A DNA stretch of 64,000 nucleotides. Origin: Bordetella parapertussis. Lineage in GTDB: Bacteria; Pseudomonadota; Gammaproteobacteria; Burkholderiales; Burkholderiaceae_C. The translations under genes were made by a program, and so were the position numbers. This document shows, piece by piece, positions 2-10,044 of the stretch. Under the pieces are notes generated by a model, which ran no database searches, was not told the origin of the DNA, and saw only the letters and a list, made by a program, of their open reading frames with translations. Location: assembly GCA_945878355.1 (NCBI GenBank), contig CAMCTC010000011.1:14810-78809 (forward strand), in the 5' to 3' direction. Each line of letters begins with the position of its first letter. Position 1 is the first letter of the stretch.

Positions 2-574
2 AATCGCGAATTGGCGCAGGTCGATGCTGATCTGTGCGCCAGCTGCGGCATCTGCGTCGGTGCCTGTCCGTCGTCGACACCTTTTCGCGGCACCGCGGTG
101 CTGGTCACCGGCATCGACATGCCACAGCAGCCGATCGACAGCGTGCGGCGCGAACTCGACGCCGGCCTGGCGGCGCTGCACAGCGAGCACCGTTTTGTGG
201 TGCTGGGTTGTGCGCAAGCGCCAGCGTTCCTGCCAGCGGCGCAGCGCGACGTGGTCAGCCTGAGCCTGGTCTGCACCGGCATGTTGCCGCCGTCGTTTGT
301 CGACTATGTGTTGCGCAGCGGTGCGTCTGGCGTCGTCGTGACCGGCTGCGATGAAGGCGACTGTGTCTTCCGCTTCGGCCAGCGCTGGACCGAACAGCGC
401 CTGCGTGGCGAGCGCGAGCCGCAGCTGCGTGCCAGCGTGCCACGTTCGCGCCTGCGCGTGGTCTGGCCGACCGCGGGTGCACCGGGGCGGGTGGCCGACG
501 CGCTGGACCAGTTGCGCGACATGGCGCGCAGCGCGCCGCTGTCTGCCGTCAATGCCGAGGTCTTTCATGGTTGA
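2..574 (+). CDS. 4Fe-4S ferredoxin / FlpD(MvhD)-like iron-sulfur protein, 5' end cut by window edge
   Basis: The reading frame is open to the left edge, so the true start lies outside; a TTG at 11 is in frame but nothing supports it as the start. The visible part begins with a C-x2-C-x2-C-x3-C-P motif, the ligand set of a [4Fe-4S] ferredoxin cluster. The rest matches the FlpD/MvhD pattern ('hydrogenase iron-sulfur subunit'): a LGCAQAP stretch, then VCTGMLPPSF, GASGVVVTGC and EGDCVFR. In methanogens this domain passes electrons between hydrogenase or formate dehydrogenase and heterodisulfide reductase. Here the neighbours are membrane haem proteins, so a soluble electron-transfer role is inferred. 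The end overlaps the next gene by 8 bp, indicating translational coupling. The family call is fairly sure; the partner is not known. Confidence 0.75.
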   Translation, partial: NRELAQVDADLCASCGICVGACPSSTPFRGTAVLVTGIDMPQQPIDSVRRELDAGLAALHSEHRFVVLGCAQAPAFLPAAQRDVVSLSLVCTGMLPPSFVDYVLRSGASGVVVTGCDEGDCVFRFGQRWTEQRLRGEREPQLRASVPRSRLRVVWPTAGAPGRVADALDQLRDMARSAPLSAVNAEVFHG

Positions 575-1094
575 AGTCTCTCCTTCCAAACCGACTGGGG
601 CGCTGGTCTGGCTGGCCCAGGGATTGCTGTACGGCTTTTTCGCACTGTTGATCGGTGTGTTCTCGCAATGGCCGACCTACCAGCACCTCGCTGCAGACCA
701 GTCGCTGATCAAGCTCAGCTTCAGCCACCACGGCAAACATGTTTCGGCCTGCCGAGCAACCAGCGTGGCCGAACTGGCCAAGCTGCCACCCAATATGCGC
801 GCACCGACGCAATGCCCGCGCGAACGCGCGCCGGTACTGGTCGAGCTCGACATCGATGGTCAGACCGTGCTTCGCCAGCAAGCCCCGCCCTCAGGGCTGT
901 CGCGGGATGGCGCTTCGGCGGTCTACCACCGCGTGCAGGTGGCGGCCGGCCCGCACCGCCTGAGCGTGCGCCTGAAGGACAGCCCGGGCGGCAGCGGCTT
1001 CGACTACACCCGTGACGCCAACGTGACCCTGGCGCCGGCGCACATCCTGGTCATCGACTTCGACGCCGAACGAGGCGGCATCACGCTGCAATGA
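567..1094 (+). CDS. Hypothetical membrane-anchored protein of the redox cluster
   Basis: The 175-residue protein has no family that I recognise. One hydrophobic segment at about residues 11-33 looks like a signal anchor, followed by a soluble domain of about 140 residues that should face the periplasm. This contains two cysteines (contexts SACRAT and TQCPRE) and a C-terminal beta-rich part (YHRVQVAAGPHRLSV, LVIDFDAERGG). There is no CxxCH haem motif and no obvious Cu_A or Cu_B ligand set. It starts at ATG 567 inside the end of the ferredoxin gene and its stop overlaps the next ATG (ATGA), so it is translated with the oxidase-like gene. A small accessory subunit or assembly factor of that protein is the simplest inference. 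Confidence 0.7.
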   Translation: MVEVSPSKPTGALVWLAQGLLYGFFALLIGVFSQWPTYQHLAADQSLIKLSFSHHGKHVSACRATSVAELAKLPPNMRAPTQCPRERAPVLVELDIDGQTVLRQQAPPSGLSRDGASAVYHRVQVAAGPHRLSVRLKDSPGGSGFDYTRDANVTLAPAHILVIDFDAERGGITLQ

Positions 1095-2590
1095 ACACTG
1101 CCAACCCTCTGCATTCGCCCACCTCGGCATCACCGTCACCGTCGGCTGTGACGGCCCGCGGCAGGCCGTCTAAGGCCCATACCTGGACTTATTCGCTGGC
1201 CGTGCCGCAAGGTGCCCAGCGCGCTTTGGCGCGAGGCTGGCTCGGGCTCGGCCTGCTGGCGTTGATCGGCGCTGGCCTGTTCTCGGTGCTGCTGGTGCTG
1301 TCGCGCACACCGGGCTTGAACCAGTGGTTTGACGTCGCCCATTTCTTTCGCGTTGCGCTGGTGGTGCACGTGGACTTGTCAGTGCTGGTCTGGTTCGTCG
1401 CGCTGGGCGGACTGCTGTGGAGCGTGAACGGCTCGGCGCGGGGCATGGCCTGGGGTTGGGCGGCCCTGCTGCTGTGCACGCTGGGTGCAGCGCTGATGTC
1501 GCTGGCGCCCTTCATGGTGGGCTTTGGCCTGCGCGCCGATCCGGTGATGGCGAACTACATTCCGGTGTTAGACGGACCCTTGTTCATCGCCGGACTCTGG
1601 GTCTTCGGTGCCGGCGCTGCGCTGCTGGTGCTGCGCAGCCTGTTGACGGCGCCCAAGCCGGGCGGGAATTTCGGCGGCGACGGCGCGCTGCGCTTCGGCT
1701 TGAACGCCGCGGCCGTGTCCGCGGCCGCGGCGCTGGCTGCCTTCGCCGCCTCTTTCGCGCTGGTGCCGACCACGCTGGCCGGCACGGCCTACTACGAGAT
1801 CGTGTTCTGGGGCGGTGGCCATGCGCTCCAGTTCACCTGGACGTTGCTGATGCTGGTGGGCTGGCTTGCCTTGGCCAGCGCTTGCGGGGCGCCGGTGGCG
1901 CTCAGCCCGCGCATCACGCTGCTGATGCTGGCGATGGCGCTGGTCGCGGTGTTCGTCACGCCTTATGCCTACCTGGCCCACGACATCGCCTCGGTCGAGC
2001 ACCGCAAGCTGTTGACCTGGGCGATGCGTCTGGGCGGCGGGGTGGCGATCGCACCGATCAGTCTGGCGGTGGTGGTCGCGCTGGCCAGGACGCCGATGGC
2101 AGCGCAGCAGCGGCGCGGTCCCGCAGCGCCTCTGCGCGCGGCGCTGCTGTCGTCGGTGCTGTTGTTTGCCGCCGGCGGCTTGATAGGGGTCTTCATCGCC
2201 GGCAGCAATGTGCGCATCCCGGCGCATTACCACGGCTGCATCGTCGGCGTGACACTGGCGCTGATGGGCCTGGTGTTCCATCTGCTGCCCCAACTGGGCT
2301 ACGGCGCGCCACAGGGGCGGATCGCGACCCTGCAGCCCGCGCTCTACGGTGCGGGTCAGCTGATGCACATCGTCGGTCTGGTGTGGTCCGGTGGTTATGG
2401 CGTGCAGCGCAAGGTGGCGGGTGCCGAGCAAGTGCTGCGCAGCAGCGGCGAGGTGGCGGGCATGGCCTTGATGGGCCTGGGCGGCGCGGTCGCGATCGCC
2501 GGTGGCCTGCTGTTCGTGGCGGTGGTGATCCAGTCGCTGCGCCGCAGCGCGTTGGCGAGCGGGCATAACACGGCCAAAACACGGCCATGA
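1091..2590 (+). CDS. Haem-copper oxidase superfamily subunit I-like protein (CcoN/NorB-like)
   Basis: The 499-residue protein has roughly twelve hydrophobic segments. His93 (VVHVDLSVLVW) fits the low-spin haem ligand of helix II. His244 (FWGGGHALQF) fits the Cu_B ligand of helix VI. His379 and His381 (IPAHYHG) fit the H-x-H haem ligands of helix X. The spacings 244-297-379 follow the classical oxidases closely. Where helix VII normally has two adjacent histidines for Cu_B, only Ala296-His297 (YLAHD) is seen. No CcoO or CcoP cytochrome c gene follows; the next gene is a cytochrome b/flavin reductase fusion, which may donate the electrons. Automatic annotation would probably say 'cbb3-type oxidase subunit I'. 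Whether it reduces O2, NO or nothing cannot be told from sequence. The N-terminal 30 residues are Ser/Pro-rich and probably cytoplasmic. Confidence 0.8.
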   Translation: MNTANPLHSPTSASPSPSAVTARGRPSKAHTWTYSLAVPQGAQRALARGWLGLGLLALIGAGLFSVLLVLSRTPGLNQWFDVAHFFRVALVVHVDLSVLVWFVALGGLLWSVNGSARGMAWGWAALLLCTLGAALMSLAPFMVGFGLRADPVMANYIPVLDGPLFIAGLWVFGAGAALLVLRSLLTAPKPGGNFGGDGALRFGLNAAAVSAAAALAAFAASFALVPTTLAGTAYYEIVFWGGGHALQFTWTLLMLVGWLALASACGAPVALSPRITLLMLAMALVAVFVTPYAYLAHDIASVEHRKLLTWAMRLGGGVAIAPISLAVVVALARTPMAAQQRRGPAAPLRAALLSSVLLFAAGGLIGVFIAGSNVRIPAHYHGCIVGVTLALMGLVFHLLPQLGYGAPQGRIATLQPALYGAGQLMHIVGLVWSGGYGVQRKVAGAEQVLRSSGEVAGMALMGLGGAVAIAGGLLFVAVVIQSLRRSALASGHNTAKTRP

Positions 2591-2597
2591 CCCAGCC

Positions 2598-4520
2598 ATG
2601 ACCCGCCGACTGCAGGCGCTGCTGCGACATCTCTTCATGCGCGTGGAGGCGGTCTTCAACACCGCCTTCGGCGACCGGCTCAATCCGCTTTACCACCTGG
2701 GTGAGATCGGTTTCTTCCTGTTCTGGATCGTCGCCGGCAGCGGCTTGTACCTCTATGCCTTCTTCGAGACCGGTGTGGCCGGTGCCCATGCCTCGGTACA
2801 AGCGCTGACCCACGGGCAGTGGTTCGCCGGCGGCATCCTGCGCACTGCGCACCGCCATGCGTCCGACGCGATGGTGATGGTGATGCTGCTGCACATGGTG
2901 CGCCACTTCGCCTTCGACCGGCTGCGCGGTTTGCGCTGGTTCTCCTGGGTCACCGGCGTGGCGCTGATATGGCTCGTCTATGTGTTGGGCATCAACGGCT
3001 ACATGCTGCCCTGGGACCGCGTGGCGCAGTTCGTGGTGGTCGCGAGCTTCGAGTGGCTGGACGCCTTGCCGACTTTCGGCGGCAGCTTGATGCGCAACTT
3101 CATCTCCGCCAGCAGCGTCAATGATCGGCTGTTCTCGCTGCTCGCGTTCGTGCACATCGGCGTCTCGCTGGTGCTGCTGCTGCTGTTGTTCGTCCATGTC
3201 CAGCGCGTGCCCAAGGCCAAGACGTTGCCGCCGCGCCGCATCATGGCCAGCCTGGGCTTGACGCTGCTGGTGCTGGCGCTGGCCACGCCGGCGCTGAGCC
3301 AGGGCGGGGCGGCGGATCTGGGGCTGGCGGCCGGCACGCTGGCGCTCGACTGGTTCTACCTGGCGTTGCTGCCGCTGCTCTATCGGTTGCCGCTGGACAC
3401 TGTCTGGGCCCTGGTGGCTGCCGGCACGGCACTGCTGGTGGCGCTGCCCTGGCTGCCACTGGGCCTGCGTCGCGGGTCGGCGCGCGCCTGCAGTGTCACC
3501 GTGCATCCGCTGGCCCAGCCCCTGACGGTGCGCGATGGCGAGACGATTCTCGATGCCGGCCTGCGCCAAGGCATGGCCTTGCGCTACGAATGCCGAAACG
3601 GTGCTTGCGGGCTTTGCCTGTGCACGGTGTTGCAGGGCCGCGTCGATCACGGTGCCTACCAGCCCAGGGCACTGACCGCCGCGATGCGGGCCAGTGGCCA
3701 GGCTTTGATGTGCTGCGCCAAACCCTTGGGTGACCTGGTGATCGAGCTCGAGGCGGGCAGCGCGCCGGCGCGCTTGACGGTGGGCGAGCATCTGGCCCGC
3801 GTGGCGATGCTCGAGCATCTGTCGCCTGAGCTGGTGCGGCTGCGCCTGGCGCTGGTCGGCGAGCCGACACTGGCTTTCAAGGCCGGCCAGTACATCAACA
3901 TCGTGCTCGAAGACGGACAGCGCCGCGCGTTCTCGTTCGCCAACCCACCGCAGCAGGCCGATCACATCGAACTGCATGTGCGGCGCATTCCAGGCGGGCG
4001 TTTCACCGGCCATGTTTTCACCGGGATGAAGGTCGGTGACCTGCTGCGATTCGAGGGGCCGCTGGGTGACTTCACGTTGCGTGACAGCCAGAACCGGGTC
4101 CTGTTCGTTGCCGGCGCGACCGGCTTTGCGCCGGTCAAGAGCATTGTCGAGGACGCATTCGCGCGCGGCGTGCTGCGGCCGATGTGGCTGTACTGGGGGG
4201 TTCGCCAGCGCGCCGACCTGTATGCGCTGGACCTGGCGCAGCAGTGGCAGCGCGAGCATCCGAATTTCCAGCTCGTGCCGGTGCTGTCCGAAGGCTCAGA
4301 AGGCGATGGCTGGAGCGGCCGGCGCGGCAGGGTCCACGAAGCGATGCTGGCCGATTTTCCCGACCTGCGGGGGTTCGAGGTCTACGTCTGTGGGTCGGTG
4401 AAGATGGTCGATGCCGCCGTGCCGGCCTTCATCGCCCAAGGGCTGGGCGAGGGGCTGTGCTTCACCGATGCCTTCTTGACCTCGGCGCCTGAACGCCAGC
4501 CACAGCTCAAACCGGCTTGA
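2598..4520 (+). CDS. Cytochrome b / plant-type [2Fe-2S] ferredoxin / FAD-NAD(P) reductase fusion
   Basis: The 640-residue protein has three modules. Residues 1-205 resemble cytochrome b/b6: four helices, His85-His99 and His186-His200 each 14 apart (two b haems), and a GYMLPWD motif after helix C. Residues 210-290 add further membrane helices. Residues 297-385 are a plant-type ferredoxin with Cys332, Cys337, Cys340 and Cys372 or Cys373. Residues 390-640 are a ferredoxin-NADP reductase-like module with RAFSFANP (FAD), [10 protein letters not shown] (nucleotide) and a late VCGS. The parts suggest electron flow between NAD(P)H and a membrane haem pair, probably toward the oxidase-like protein encoded 7 bp upstream. 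The ATG at 2598 follows that stop closely. The 3' end overlaps hisD on the other strand by 14 bp. Module identities are secure; the direction of electron flow is inferred. Confidence 0.85.
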
Positions 4521-5877
4521 GCCTCATCTGCGCGGCCATGGCATGCGCATGCAGCCCTTCGCCATAGGCCAGTTCAGCGGCGATCGGCCCCAACACCTGG
4601 GCACCGGCCTGGCTGACTTCGATCAGACTGCTGCGTTTCTGGAAGTCATAGACGCCTAACGGCGACGAGAAACGTGCGGTGCCCGAGGTCGGCAGCACAT
4701 GGTTGGGTCCGGCGCAGTAGTCGCCCAGGCTCTCGCTGGTCCAGGCGCCGAGGAAGATCGCGCCGGCATGACGCAACAGCGGCTCCCAGCGATGAGGGTC
4801 GCGGCTGGACACCTCCAGGTGCTCGGGCGCGATGCGGTTGCTGATCTCGCAGGCCTCTTCCATGCTGCGGGTCAGGATCAGCGCGCCGCGGCCGGCCAGC
4901 GACTGGGCGATGATCGCCGCGCGCGGCATCGTCGGCAGCAGGCGGTCGATCTCGCGCTGCACTGCGGCGATGTAGCCGGCATCGGGGCACAGCAGGATGC
5001 TCTGCGCCAGCTCGTCGTGCTCGGCCTGGCTGAACAAGTCCATCGCCACCCAGTCGGCCGGCGTGCTGCCGTCGGCCAGCACCAGGATCTCGCTGGGGCC
5101 GGCAATCATGTCGATGCCCACGCTGCCGAACACCCGCTTCTTGGCACTGGCCACATAGGCATTGCCCGGTCCGGTGATCTTGTCGACACGCGGCACGGTG
5201 GCCGTGCCGTAGGCCAGCGCGGCCACCGCCTGCGCGCCGCCGATGGTGAAGGCGCGGGTGACGCCGGCCACGTAGGCCGCCGCCAGTACCAACTCGTTGC
5301 GCTCGCCGCGGGCTGCGGTGGCCGCCGCGCCGCTGCCGCCGGTGGCCACGCTGCCGCGCACCGGCGTGGGCACCACCATGATGATCTCCTGCACGCCGGC
5401 CACATGCGCCGGCACCGCGTTCATGATCAGGCTGGACGGGTAGGCGGCCTTGCCGCCGGGCACGTAGATGCCCACGCGGTCTAGCGGCGTGACCTTCTGG
5501 CCCAGCAAGGTGCCGTCCTCGTCGCGGTAGCTCCAGCTCTCGCCCGAGGCCTTCTTCTGCGCCTCGTGATAGCTGCGCACGCGCCGGGTGGCGGCCTGCA
5601 AGGCCTCGCGCTGCGCGGTGGGCAGGCCATCGAAGGCGGCCTTGAAATCGGCCTGCGACAGTTCCAGCTCGGCCATGCTGGCGACGGCCAAACCGTCGAA
5701 GCGCGCGGTGTAGTCGAGCACCGCAGCATCGCCGCGCTGCTTCACGTCGGCCAGGATACCAGCCACGCGCTGCTCAATCGCGTCGTCGGTCTCGGCCGAC
5801 CAGTGCAGCACGCGCTGGAATTCAGCCTCGAAGCTGGCGGACGCGGTGCTGAGGTGGCGGATGTCGACGGCAGGCAT
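4507..5877 (-). CDS. hisD: Histidinol dehydrogenase
   Basis: It catalyses the last two steps of histidine synthesis, from L-histidinol through histidinal to histidine with two NAD+. The 456-residue protein keeps the zinc ligands (Gln and His in [10 protein letters not shown], Asp in [11 protein letters not shown], His in EGLHAHAM) and the catalytic Glu-His in IAPEHLE. It is about 20 residues longer than the E. coli enzyme. Part of the excess is a Gly/Ala/Ser-rich insertion after MVVPTPVRG, before [13 protein letters not shown]. It lies 44 bp downstream of hisG in the same direction. The usual next genes hisC and hisB are absent; instead a convergent redox cluster overlaps its 3' end, so the his operon stops here. 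Confidence 0.97.
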
Positions 5878-6608: not shown

Positions 6609-7876
6609 TTGAGTCTTTCGATGTCGGCGCCAATGGCGCGCAGCTTGGCTTCCATCCGGTCGTAGCCGCGATCGAGGTGGTAGATCCGGTCGACCAAGGT
6701 CTCACCCTTGGCCACCAGCCCGGCGATCACCAAGCTGGCCGATGCGCGCAAATCGGTGGCCATCACGGTGGCGCCAGACAAGGCGGGCACGCCGGTGACC
6801 AGCGCGGTGTGGCCATCGACCTCAATCCGCGCACCCAAGCGAACCAACTCGTTGACATGCATGAACCGGTTTTCGAAGATCGTCTCGCTGATCCGTGCCA
6901 CACCCTCGGCAATGCAGTCGATGGCCATGAACTGGGCCTGCATGTCGGTGGGAAAAGCCGGGTACTCGCTGGTGCGAAACCCCACCGCGCGCGGCCTGCC
7001 GCTGGCCTGCACGCGGATCCAGCCCTGACCCGCCTCGTCACCGTGGCTGATCGTGGCGCCGGTGTCGCGCAGCTTGTCGATCACCGCATCAAGGTGTTGT
7101 GCATCGGCACCGAGCAAGGTCACGTCGCCACCGGCAGCGACCACTGCGCACAGGTAGGTGCCGGCCTCGATCCGGTCGGGCAGGATGCTGTGCGGCGCGA
7201 TCGGCGAATGCAGCCGATCCACGCCCTGGATCCGAATTCGGCTGCTGCCATGGCCTTCGATGCGCGCACCCATCGCGATCAGCAGTTTGGCCAGGTCGCC
7301 GATTTCGGGCTCCTGGGCCGCGTTCTCGAGCAAGGTCTCACCATCGGCCAGCGTGGCGGCCATCATCAGGTTCTCAGTACCGGTGACCGTGACCATGTCG
7401 GTGGTGATGCGGGCCCCGCGCAAGCGAGTGGTCTTGGCCAGGATGTAACCGTGCTCGACGCTGATCTCGGCACCCATCGCCTGCAAGCCCTTGATGTGCT
7501 GGTCGACCGGCCGAGAGCCGATCGCGCAGCCTCCGGGCAGCGACACCCTCGCGTGTCCACAGCGCGCAAGCAGCGGGCCCAGCACCAGGATCGCAGCGCG
7601 CATGGTCTTGACCAGATCGTAGGGCGCTTCGGGCGCCGTGATCTGGCTGGCGTCCAATGCCACCGCGTCGCTGGCCGATCGCTCAGCGACCACACCCATG
7701 CTCCGCAACAGCCTGAGCATCGTCGAGACGTCCTGCAACTGCGGCACGTTGTGCAGCAGCACCGGCTGGTCGACCAGCAGCGCAGCGCACAGCTCTGGCA
7801 AGGCCGCGTTCTTGGCGCCGGCAATCGGCACCTGGCCGGTCAGGCGGCGGCCGCCGCGTATCAGGAGTTTGTCCAT
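6605..7876 (-). CDS. murA: UDP-N-acetylglucosamine 1-carboxyvinyltransferase
   Basis: This cytoplasmic enzyme starts peptidoglycan synthesis by moving enolpyruvate from PEP to UDP-GlcNAc. The 423-residue length is normal. Lys22-Asn23 in the GAKNAALP motif and the catalytic cysteine Cys117 in [15 protein letters not shown] are present, so the enzyme should be sensitive to fosfomycin rather than being a Cys-to-Asp variant. The gene sits between bolA (71 bp upstream) and hisG (4-bp overlap) on the same strand, the standard betaproteobacterial order. Confidence 0.98.
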
Positions 7877-7912
7877 GAGCTTGGCCCAGGTTCAGAGCCG
7901 CTCGGGGGACCG

Positions 7913-7939
7913 GGCGCATGCGCCAGCGGGGGCCCCGCT
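7913..7939. repeat. Adjacent palindromes between bolA and murA
   Basis: Two palindromes lie side by side in the 71-bp gap: a perfect 12-bp one (GGCGCATGCGCC, 7913-7924) and a stem of 7+7 bp around one G (AGCGGGG/CCCCGCT, 7925-7939). They could fold in the bolA-murA message. No T-run follows, so this is not a classical terminator. Confidence 0.45.
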
Positions 7940-7947
7940 GCGGCCTG

Positions 7948-8214
7948 TCAGTGTTGGATGTGGTGCGGGTCGGGAGACGCCGCCCATTCGGCAGGGGTCA
8001 AGGTCTTCATCGACAGCGCGTGGATCTGGGCCCGCATCCTGTCGCCCAGCGCGGTGTAAACGCGCTGGTGCCGAAGCACCCGACTCTTGCCGGTGAACTC
8101 GGCCGAGACGATGGTGGCAAAAAAGTGATGGCCATCGCCTTCGACCTCGAGGTGGTCGCAAGGCAATCCAGCGGCGATGAAGCCACGCACGTCGTCAGCA
8201 GTTGGGTCAGCCAT
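7948..8214 (-). CDS. BolA/IbaG family protein
   Basis: This 88-residue protein belongs to the BolA family, small proteins that bind [2Fe-2S] clusters together with monothiol glutaredoxins. The pattern LEVEGDGHHFFATIVSAEF followed by KSRVLRHQRVYTALGDRM is typical, with the conserved histidine in the RHQRVY stretch. Placement directly upstream of murA is the same as for ibaG (yrbA) in E. coli, so the IbaG subgroup is more likely than stress BolA. A GC-rich repeat occupies the DNA just upstream of its start. Confidence 0.9.
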   Translation of the reverse strand: MADPTADDVRGFIAAGLPCDHLEVEGDGHHFFATIVSAEFTGKSRVLRHQRVYTALGDRMRAQIHALSMKTLTPAEWAASPDPHHIQH

Positions 8215-8226
8215 GCGCTGGATTAT

Positions 8227-8290
8227 CTCTCAAGCAAATATGGCTTTGCCGCTTTGCTGGACCCCATCGGGGCGGCCGGCCTCAGGGCGC
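8227..8290. repeat. Dispersed GC-rich repeat, copy 1
   Basis: This stretch starts CTCTCAAGCAAATATGGCTT, continues to TTTGCTGG, then has CCCCATCGGGGCGGCCGGC and a GGGCGCC end. Closely similar elements occur at 14044-14124 and 30710-30790. It can fold as two hairpins, AAGCAAA.../TTTGCTG and CCCC/GGGG. It fills the gap between the bolA start and the end of the ABC-2 permease gene. Confidence 0.75.
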
Positions 8291-8323
8291 CCCGAGGGAC
8301 CGGCGGCGCCGCAGGCCGACGGA

Positions 8324-9084
8324 TCACGCCCTGAGCTTGTAACCGGTCTTGAGCAGGCGCAGCGCCAGCGCCGAGACCAGCAGAAAGCTGCCACCCACCA
8401 CGCACAAGCTGAGCCAGGGCGAGACATCGCTGGTGCCGAAGAAGCCGCGTCTGAAGCCATCGATCATGTAGAAAAACGGGTTCAAATGGCTCGCCTGGAG
8501 CCAGAAAGCGGGCAGCGAATGCACCGAGTAGAAAACACCTGACAAAAAAGTCATCGGCATGATGATGAAGTTCTGGAACGCCGACATCTGGTCGAACTTG
8601 TCGGCCCACAGCCCGGCGATCAGCCCCAGCGCACCCAACATGCCGGCACCGAGCAAAGCGAACACCAGGATCCACAAGGGCTGGGCAAACGACGGCGGCG
8701 CGAACCACACCGTGACCAGGAACACCCCCGCCCCCACCACCAACCCGCGCACCACGCTGGCCCCCACATAGGCGACGAACCAGGCCCAGTGCGACAGCGG
8801 TGACAGCAACAAGAACACCAAGTTACCGGTGATCTTGCTCTGCACCAGGCTGGACGAGCTGTTGGCAAACGCGTTTTGCAGCACGCTCATCATCACCAGC
8901 CCCGGGACCAGGAAACTGGTGTAGCCCACCCCTGGAAAAACCTCGACCCTGCCCTGCAACACATGGCCGAAGATCAGCAGGTACATCATCGCTGTGAGCA
9001 CCGGTGCGGCCACGGTCTGGAAACCCACCTTCCAGAAACGCAGCAACTCCTTGAAAAACAACGTTCGCGCGCCCGCCAAGCTGA

Positions 9085-9088
<4 letters not shown>
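8324..9088 (-). CDS. ABC-2 type transporter permease (YadH/NodJ-like)
   Basis: The 254-residue protein is the membrane part of an ABC-2 exporter, with six hydrophobic segments and the pattern of the YadH/NodJ group (FLVPGLVMMSVLQNAFANSSSS, then MPMTFLSGVFYS, then PFFYMIDGFRRGFFG). Its start overlaps the end of the ATPase gene by 4 bp, so the two form one transporter. The substrate is unknown. In related genomes this pair lies between the Mla lipid-transport genes and bolA-murA, which hints at an envelope component, but that is inference. Confidence 0.92.

Positions 9089-10044
<956 letters not shown>

Follow-up and report, generated by a model that had tools for sequence, protein, structure and literature searches.

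Four genes at the left end of a 64,000-nucleotide stretch deposited as Bordetella parapertussis (contig CAMCTC010000011.1, positions 14,810 to 78,809; hereafter the window) raise the question of which enzyme their products serve. The genes, here called g1 to g4, encode the tail of a cytochrome b6/iron-sulfur/FlpD fusion, an anchored protein, a heme-copper-oxidase look-alike and a cytochrome b fused to a flavin reductase. An earlier note, made from the sequence alone, considered them a free-standing respiratory module. As judged from sequence comparison, they probably form the 3' half of an eNOR operon of Proteobacteria, the half with the accessory genes; within this operon, g1 and g4 would act as electron-input modules and g2 and g3 as helpers. 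eNOR is a heme-copper nitric oxide (NO) reductase that belongs to a branch of the B family and is called the 'ba3-a1' oxidase in older work. NO reductases control the release of nitrous oxide (N2O).

The operon in related genomes

The open reading frame (ORF) calls and the sequence confirm the tight coupling of the four plus-strand genes that was described in the earlier note: g1 and g2 overlap by 8 bp (567-574), g2 and g3 overlap by 4 bp (1091-1094), and a gap of 7 bp (2591-2597) separates g3 from g4. As the note proposed, they form one apparent transcription unit. The window starts inside g1, and the 5' end of this gene is cut off by the window edge. The search for the same gene order in other genomes, which the note had put forward as a check, started from 231 relatives of g3 in species genomes; the best 80 loci by g3 similarity were retained and annotated by tblastn. 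The order g1-g2-g3-g4 is kept in 65 of these 80 loci, and L067, L069, L071 and L080 carry the variant order g4, g2, g1, g3.

In the 80 loci, the usual gene order is eNOR-II, eNOR-I, CtaB, Sco, g1, g2, g3, g4, with the identities of the upstream genes assigned through Pfam and NCBIfam at one locus, L070. eNOR-I lies upstream of g3 in all 62 loci that extend at least 7.5 kb upstream. CtaA is placed divergently ahead of eNOR-II in 31 of the 80 loci and downstream in nine. On an alphaproteobacterial plasmid, the order is subunit II (labelled hypothetical), subunit I, heme o synthase, SCO, g1, g2 and hemerythrin. The earlier note had stated that its free-standing module would fall if the genes to the left encoded a standard cbb3 or NO reductase complex with these genes as known accessories; the left-hand genes of the relatives, namely eNOR-II and eNOR-I, usually CtaB, and Sco, come near to this. 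A standard cbb3 or aa3 operon is ruled out because no CcoO or CcoP is encoded by the four genes and the upstream genes of the relatives are those of eNOR. The absence of CcoO and CcoP from the four window genes, in agreement with the note, is based on Pfam and NCBIfam scans; the relatives were not systematically searched for them.

The replacement of the catalytic tyrosine (Tyr) by glutamine (Gln) is diagnostic of eNOR, and a cupredoxin subunit II is encoded directly upstream of subunit I (PMC8756737). The Tyr-less 'ba3-a1' enzyme of magnetospirilla has Sco in its operon (PMC6431628); ba3-a1 has been equated with eNOR, with an activity report cited (PMC8879329), and eNOR is listed among the biochemically characterized NO reductases (PMC11388526). 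Genes for eNOR are frequently labelled as oxidases (PMC8756737). The relatives of the window locus share with eNOR a subunit I with Gln and with the CuB and heme ligands, a CuA subunit II upstream and Sco in the operon, whereas the window itself carries accessory genes only. In particular, when the eNOR-I of the relatives is aligned with the ba3 oxidase of T. thermophilus, the active-site Tyr (GHPIVY) falls on Gln (GHSSQQ), and the histidine (His) pair of CuB (HH) is retained. No variation at His231, Gln235, the HH pair, His385 or His387 occurs in the 66 rows that remained after nine of the 75 extracted rows proved to be g3 and were set aside. The gene immediately upstream of subunit I in the relatives encodes a cupredoxin subunit II, with the CuA ligands present in all 64 subunits II.

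The link between these genes was also scored across 369 genomes from the class to which Castellaniella defragrans belongs; C. defragrans itself, a laboratory denitrifier, has the operon with g4 and without g1. A genome was counted for eNOR-I if its matches added up to at least about 340 bits (34 genomes, three of them fragmentary), for g3 at a best match above 200 bits (46 genomes), for g1 at E <= 1e-60 with the match extending beyond the cytochrome b part (33 genomes) and for nosZ at E <= 1e-50 (62 genomes); these thresholds were set after the tables had been seen, and the Fisher tests ignore shared ancestry. g1 is found in 32 of the 34 eNOR genomes and eNOR in 32 of the 33 g1 genomes. The g1-free eNOR genomes are G001, which has g4 and was excluded from the g1 genomes as its match is limited to the cytochrome b part, and G272, where the contig stops just past eNOR-I; G223 is the sole g1 genome that is free of eNOR. 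g1 and eNOR are at most 5 kb apart in 26 of the 32 genomes, farther apart on one contig in two, and on separate contigs in four. Moreover, among the 59 loci that are complete on both sides, 51 carry both g1 and g4, six g4 only, two g1 only and none neither; g2 is present in all 59. As it tracks eNOR almost one to one, g1 may provide a second genome marker for eNOR and a handle on its electron source.

A connection of the operon with NO is supported by a CRP/FNR-type box in front of it and by nosZ. The CRP/FNR-type box has the consensus TTGAT-N4-ATCAA. A scan of up to 320 bp upstream of eNOR-II finds this box with at most two mismatches in 48 of 64 loci, compared with 9.3 in shuffles (an approximate doublet-keeping swap), and with at most one mismatch in 20 of 64, compared with 0.8; inside the eNOR-I gene, a box with at most two mismatches occurs in one of 70. 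nosZ is found in 17 of the 34 eNOR genomes versus 34 of the 317 genomes that lack eNOR as well as g3, and a match above the cut-off is present in seven of eight isolate genomes, which were hand-picked.

Cofactor chains of g1 and g4

The part of g1 inside the window contains one 4Fe-4S domain and an FlpD domain (45.9 bits, cut-off 22.3; Pfam). In relatives, the full-length protein (538 aa in L070; the gene is also complete in L001) has a cytochrome b6-like domain and a second 4Fe-4S motif ahead of this part, as identified by Pfam. The two domains that the earlier note saw in its ferredoxin/FlpD-like gene are confirmed, but the stretch inside the window encodes no more than the C-terminal 190 aa of a longer membrane fusion. 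The suggestion that FlpD is a soluble entry or exit is contradicted by its fusion to a membrane cytochrome b in full-length relatives, and a soluble FlpD protein was discarded as a candidate for g1 on this ground. Matches to the tail of g1 include MvhD chains and the C-terminal region of HdrA2, and g1 of L070 matches solved MvhD chains; unlike the MvhD/FlpD proteins that work with HdrA, however, the FlpD domain of g1 forms one polypeptide with a membrane cytochrome b. No HdrA flavoprotein, hydrogenase or formate dehydrogenase is found among the annotated operon genes; the rest of the genomes was not searched. After removal of the 12 of 80 raw g1 rows that have no ferredoxin motif, all 68 remaining rows share the four heme His, the eight ferredoxin cysteines (Cys) and the four Cys of FlpD.

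g4 consists of an N-terminal cytochrome b domain followed by Fer2, FAD and NAD domains (Pfam). Its C-terminal half shows the Fer2-FAD-NAD order of oxygenase reductases of the BenC and MmoC type, and its best solved relatives are reductases from oxygenase or P450 systems; however, in g4 this half is joined to a membrane cytochrome b, and no oxygenase is found among the annotated operon genes. The heme ligands His 85/99/186/200 and the [2Fe-2S] ligands Cys 332/337/340/372 are kept in all 65 rows that were retained from 78 after cleaning. Because their cofactor ligands are invariant, g1 and g4 both look like functional electron-transfer chains, and the route via NAD(P)H, Fe-S centers and b hemes drawn in the earlier note is plausible. 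A crude hydropathy count gives six helices in g4 but only three in g1 and is no firm guide to the topology of g1.

The cytochrome b parts of both proteins share with cytochrome b6 and bc-type cytochrome b the four heme His with 14-residue spacings, and they match cytochrome b6 chains. They differ from these proteins in their fusion to Fe-S or flavin arms, and no Rieske protein and no cytochrome f/c1 are found among the annotated operon genes. The four-helix part is followed by an aspartate-tryptophan (Asp-Trp) pair, of which both residues are invariant in g1 (68/68 each) and nearly so in g4 (Asp 65/65, Trp 64/65); we take this pair to be comparable to the PEWY loop of cytochrome b. Their homology to cytochrome b6, in which none of the four heme His is missing, together with Asp-Trp as a possible quinone site, points to a reading that is possible, if doubtful: g1 and g4 might be quinone-linked dehydrogenases of the NAD(P)H or ferredoxin type whose electrons enter the quinol pool and reach eNOR only by this indirect way. 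Against it, g1 and eNOR occur together more strictly, nearly one to one, than would be necessary for a quinone reductase of general use.

g2 and the oxidase look-alike g3

g2 has no family match in Pfam or NCBIfam. Its AlphaFold2 (AF2) model, with a predicted local distance difference test (pLDDT) score of 92, consists of a single N-terminal transmembrane (TM) helix and a beta sandwich, and residues C62 and C83 are present in all 80 loci. The L069 operon contains two copies of g2 (7358-7840 and 9543-10001).

g3 gives a weak COX1 match (39.1 bits, cut-off 34.8) in Pfam alone, with none in NCBIfam, and its AF2 model is matched by Foldseek to ba3 oxidase (E 4.8e-8). The protein has the two heme sites and three heme His of the oxidase fold. 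It shares its overall fold with the cbb3 oxidase (CcoNOP), and several of its relatives are named 'cbb3-type cytochrome c oxidase subunit I' by NCBI, a name that looks generic; however, g3 lacks the CuB His pair, and in trees it is placed beside eNOR, not CcoN, with moderate support. The HH pair is kept in none of three alignments of the corresponding helix (residues 293-297), one of which leaves a single His (297) in 48 of the 80 proteins. The HH dipeptide is absent from 77 of the 80; the remaining three have it at 297-298 (L056) or 304-305 (L069, L071). His244 is the single invariant CuB-type His, the position of the catalytic (cross-linked) Tyr is occupied by Phe248 in all 80, and the GHxxQF residues also occur in all nine checked g3 relatives outside eNOR operons. 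Because the CuB His pair is not kept, g3 is probably not a second oxidase; its candidacy as the catalytic oxidase was rejected on account of the missing pair, and the oxidase-like catalytic center that the earlier note saw in it is unlikely. The free-standing respiratory module built around this center finds support in the oxidase fold and the three heme His of g3, but with HH and the Tyr lost and eNOR-I upstream in every testable relative, it is largely refuted and highly improbable.

g3 is also found without eNOR, in 18 of the 369 class genomes (loci L134-L152). In at least eight of these 18 (L136, L138, L139, L142, L143, L144, L147 and L152), it is located near oxidase, CtaA or CtaB genes, and in L141, CtaA adjoins g3. 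The oxidases in L136, L138, L139 and L143 score best with CtaD/CoxA, with the curated cut-off passed in L139 alone. In L111 (Herbaspirillum sp. ST 5-3), positions 7327-9288 encode a distant relative of g3 that has TPR repeats at its C-terminus and lies between ResB and Cytochrom_C_asm genes. This neighborhood, with ResB and two Cytochrom_C_asm genes, is like the cytochrome c-maturation contexts in L146 and L149. A conserved protein of oxidase fold that lacks a normal copper site and occurs in loci for eNOR, aa3 and cytochrome c maturation, g3 is an unexplained heme protein.

These neighbors, as well as Sco and usually CtaB within the operon and CtaA in front of or behind it, would fit an operon that serves the maturation of eNOR cofactors. 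In such a case, g1 and g4 would be the electron source for CtaA in heme A synthesis or for the reduction of heme or copper, g2 and Sco would act on copper, and g3 would be an oxidase-derived heme chaperone. CtaA and aa3 oxidases are, however, much commoner than g1, which follows eNOR so closely; big multi-cofactor reductases would be a costly means of reducing a synthase; and in most of the eight loci with oxidase, CtaA or CtaB neighbors, g3 is encoded on the opposite strand to them. A maturation operon is thus considered unlikely.

Another role for g3 is suggested by nosZ, which is found in 11 of the 18 genomes with g3 but not eNOR versus 34 of 317 with neither, in a test that ignores shared ancestry, and by hemerythrin, which directly follows g2 in four of six eNOR loci from g3-free genomes (L154-L157; Pfam Hemerythrin for L154), in L163 (with g3 on a separate contig) and on the Defluviimonas plasmid. 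g3 might be an NO- or O2-binding sensor or an NO-buffering protein, perhaps exchangeable with hemerythrin. Yet two eNOR loci have hemerythrin plus g3, namely L117 (between g1 and g2) and L153 (ahead of eNOR-II), so that plain replacement fails, and no signaling domain is found in g3 by Pfam; such a role appears quite improbable. L169 belongs to the eNOR operons with hemerythrin right after g2 and no adjoining g3.

Proposed electron flow and window features

Set beside the observed gene content, gene order, ligand conservation and co-occurrence, the accessory half of an eNOR operon could work as follows. eNOR-II, eNOR-I, usually CtaB, and then Sco would lie to the left of the window, ahead of g1-g2-g3-g4, and we infer that in the source organism eNOR, with its CuA subunit II and Gln-type subunit I, reduces NO to N2O. 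Because none of the 59 complete loci lacks both g1 and g4, and because g1 and eNOR pair nearly one to one, g1 and g4 are modeled as interchangeable membrane cytochromes b. Each would hold two b hemes and, at its C-terminus, a redox arm that is probably cytoplasmic, a side that we assume from the topology of cytochrome b. Electrons would enter g4 from NAD(P)H via FAD and [2Fe-2S] and g1 from a cytoplasmic partner via FlpD and two [4Fe-4S] clusters, and the b hemes would carry them across the membrane, where either quinone or the eNOR side would receive them. g2 may be an anchored beta-sandwich subunit or an assembly protein, and g3 a heme-carrying relative of eNOR-I without normal CuB that handles electrons, heme or NO and does not reduce O2. 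A more specific version is tentative and unlikely: g1 or g4, as a cytochrome b dedicated to eNOR, would carry electrons of NAD(P)H or of a low-potential Fe-S donor across the membrane to NO reduction in one supercomplex, and g3 would be a heme protein of a new kind, with an oxidase fold and an active site remodeled to work without copper, that also serves other oxidases.

Several observations weigh against this assignment. The eNOR genes lie outside the window and are placed there from relatives; the closest of these, L001 (93% identity in g3), shows the final part of eNOR-I and then CtaB, Sco and g1. In one paper, eNorB is termed quinol-dependent (PMC13274419). The CuA of subunit II hints at a carrier in the periplasm that brings electrons to eNOR, and neither such a carrier nor quinol requires a direct path from g1 or g4. 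No nosZ was found in 17 of the 34 eNOR genomes at the cut-off used. g4 is rare outside such loci (among the matches listed, three of 369 genomes: G001, G090 and G350, in the last of which it is split), and in G090 about 1.9 Mb separate it from the eNOR genes. Finally, 18 of the 46 g3 genomes have no eNOR, so g3 is not an eNOR-only part.

eNOR is already known, and the novelty of its g1-g4 partners is uncertain. In the available portions of the eNOR literature, compared without Murali et al. 2024 (the main eNOR paper), no description of the g1-g4 set was found; the one text in the collection searched that mentions FlpD, cytochrome b and nitric oxide reductase together is PMC8756737, in which FlpD occurs once, in an appendix table of domain combinations. 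The earlier note's view that the composition is unlike characterized complexes is shared here: we know of no complex that matches it.

Table 1. Genes, domains and predicted ligands at the left end of the window
Feature	Position	Strand	Basis
g1, C-terminal 190 aa of cytochrome b6 / 2x[4Fe-4S] / FlpD fusion	2..574	+	Pfam, full-length relatives
g1 second [4Fe-4S] Cys motif, C-x2-C-x2-C-x3-C	35..67	+	Cys kept in 68/68 cleaned full-length relatives
g1 FlpD (MvhD-like) domain	251..517	+	PF02662
g2, one N-terminal TM helix and beta sandwich, 175 aa	567..1094	+	No Pfam/NCBIfam match; AF2
g3, heme-copper-oxidase fold without CuB His pair, 499 aa	1091..2590	+	Pfam, AF2, Foldseek, tree
g3 His93, predicted low-spin heme ligand	1367..1369	+	80/80
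g3 His244, Gln247, Phe248 (GHxxQF motif)	1820..1834	+	80/80
g3 His379-Tyr380-His381, predicted proximal high-spin heme ligand and second low-spin ligand	2225..2233	+	80/80
g4, cytochrome b6-like domain fused to [2Fe-2S] and FAD/NAD(P)H reductase, 640 aa	2598..4520	+	Pfam/NCBIfam
g4 cytochrome b domain	2673..3203	+	PF00033
g4 plant-type [2Fe-2S] domain	3501..3725	+	PF00111
g4 FAD- and NAD-binding domains	3801..4418	+	PF00970, PF00175

The next gene in the window is hisD (4507-5877, minus strand), which is convergent to g4; the 3' ends of the two genes overlap by 14 bp (4507-4520). The metagenome-assembled genome (MAG) that contains L001 is titled Bordetella parapertussis, a label that looks wrong given that further close relatives bear the names Rhizobacter or Caldimonas. 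Among the eight isolate genomes, four (L100, L101, L102 and L106) encode an extra heme-copper subunit I, in frames of 577-593 aa with the motif GGHHL[IV]GGP, which forms a clade beside CcoN in the tree.

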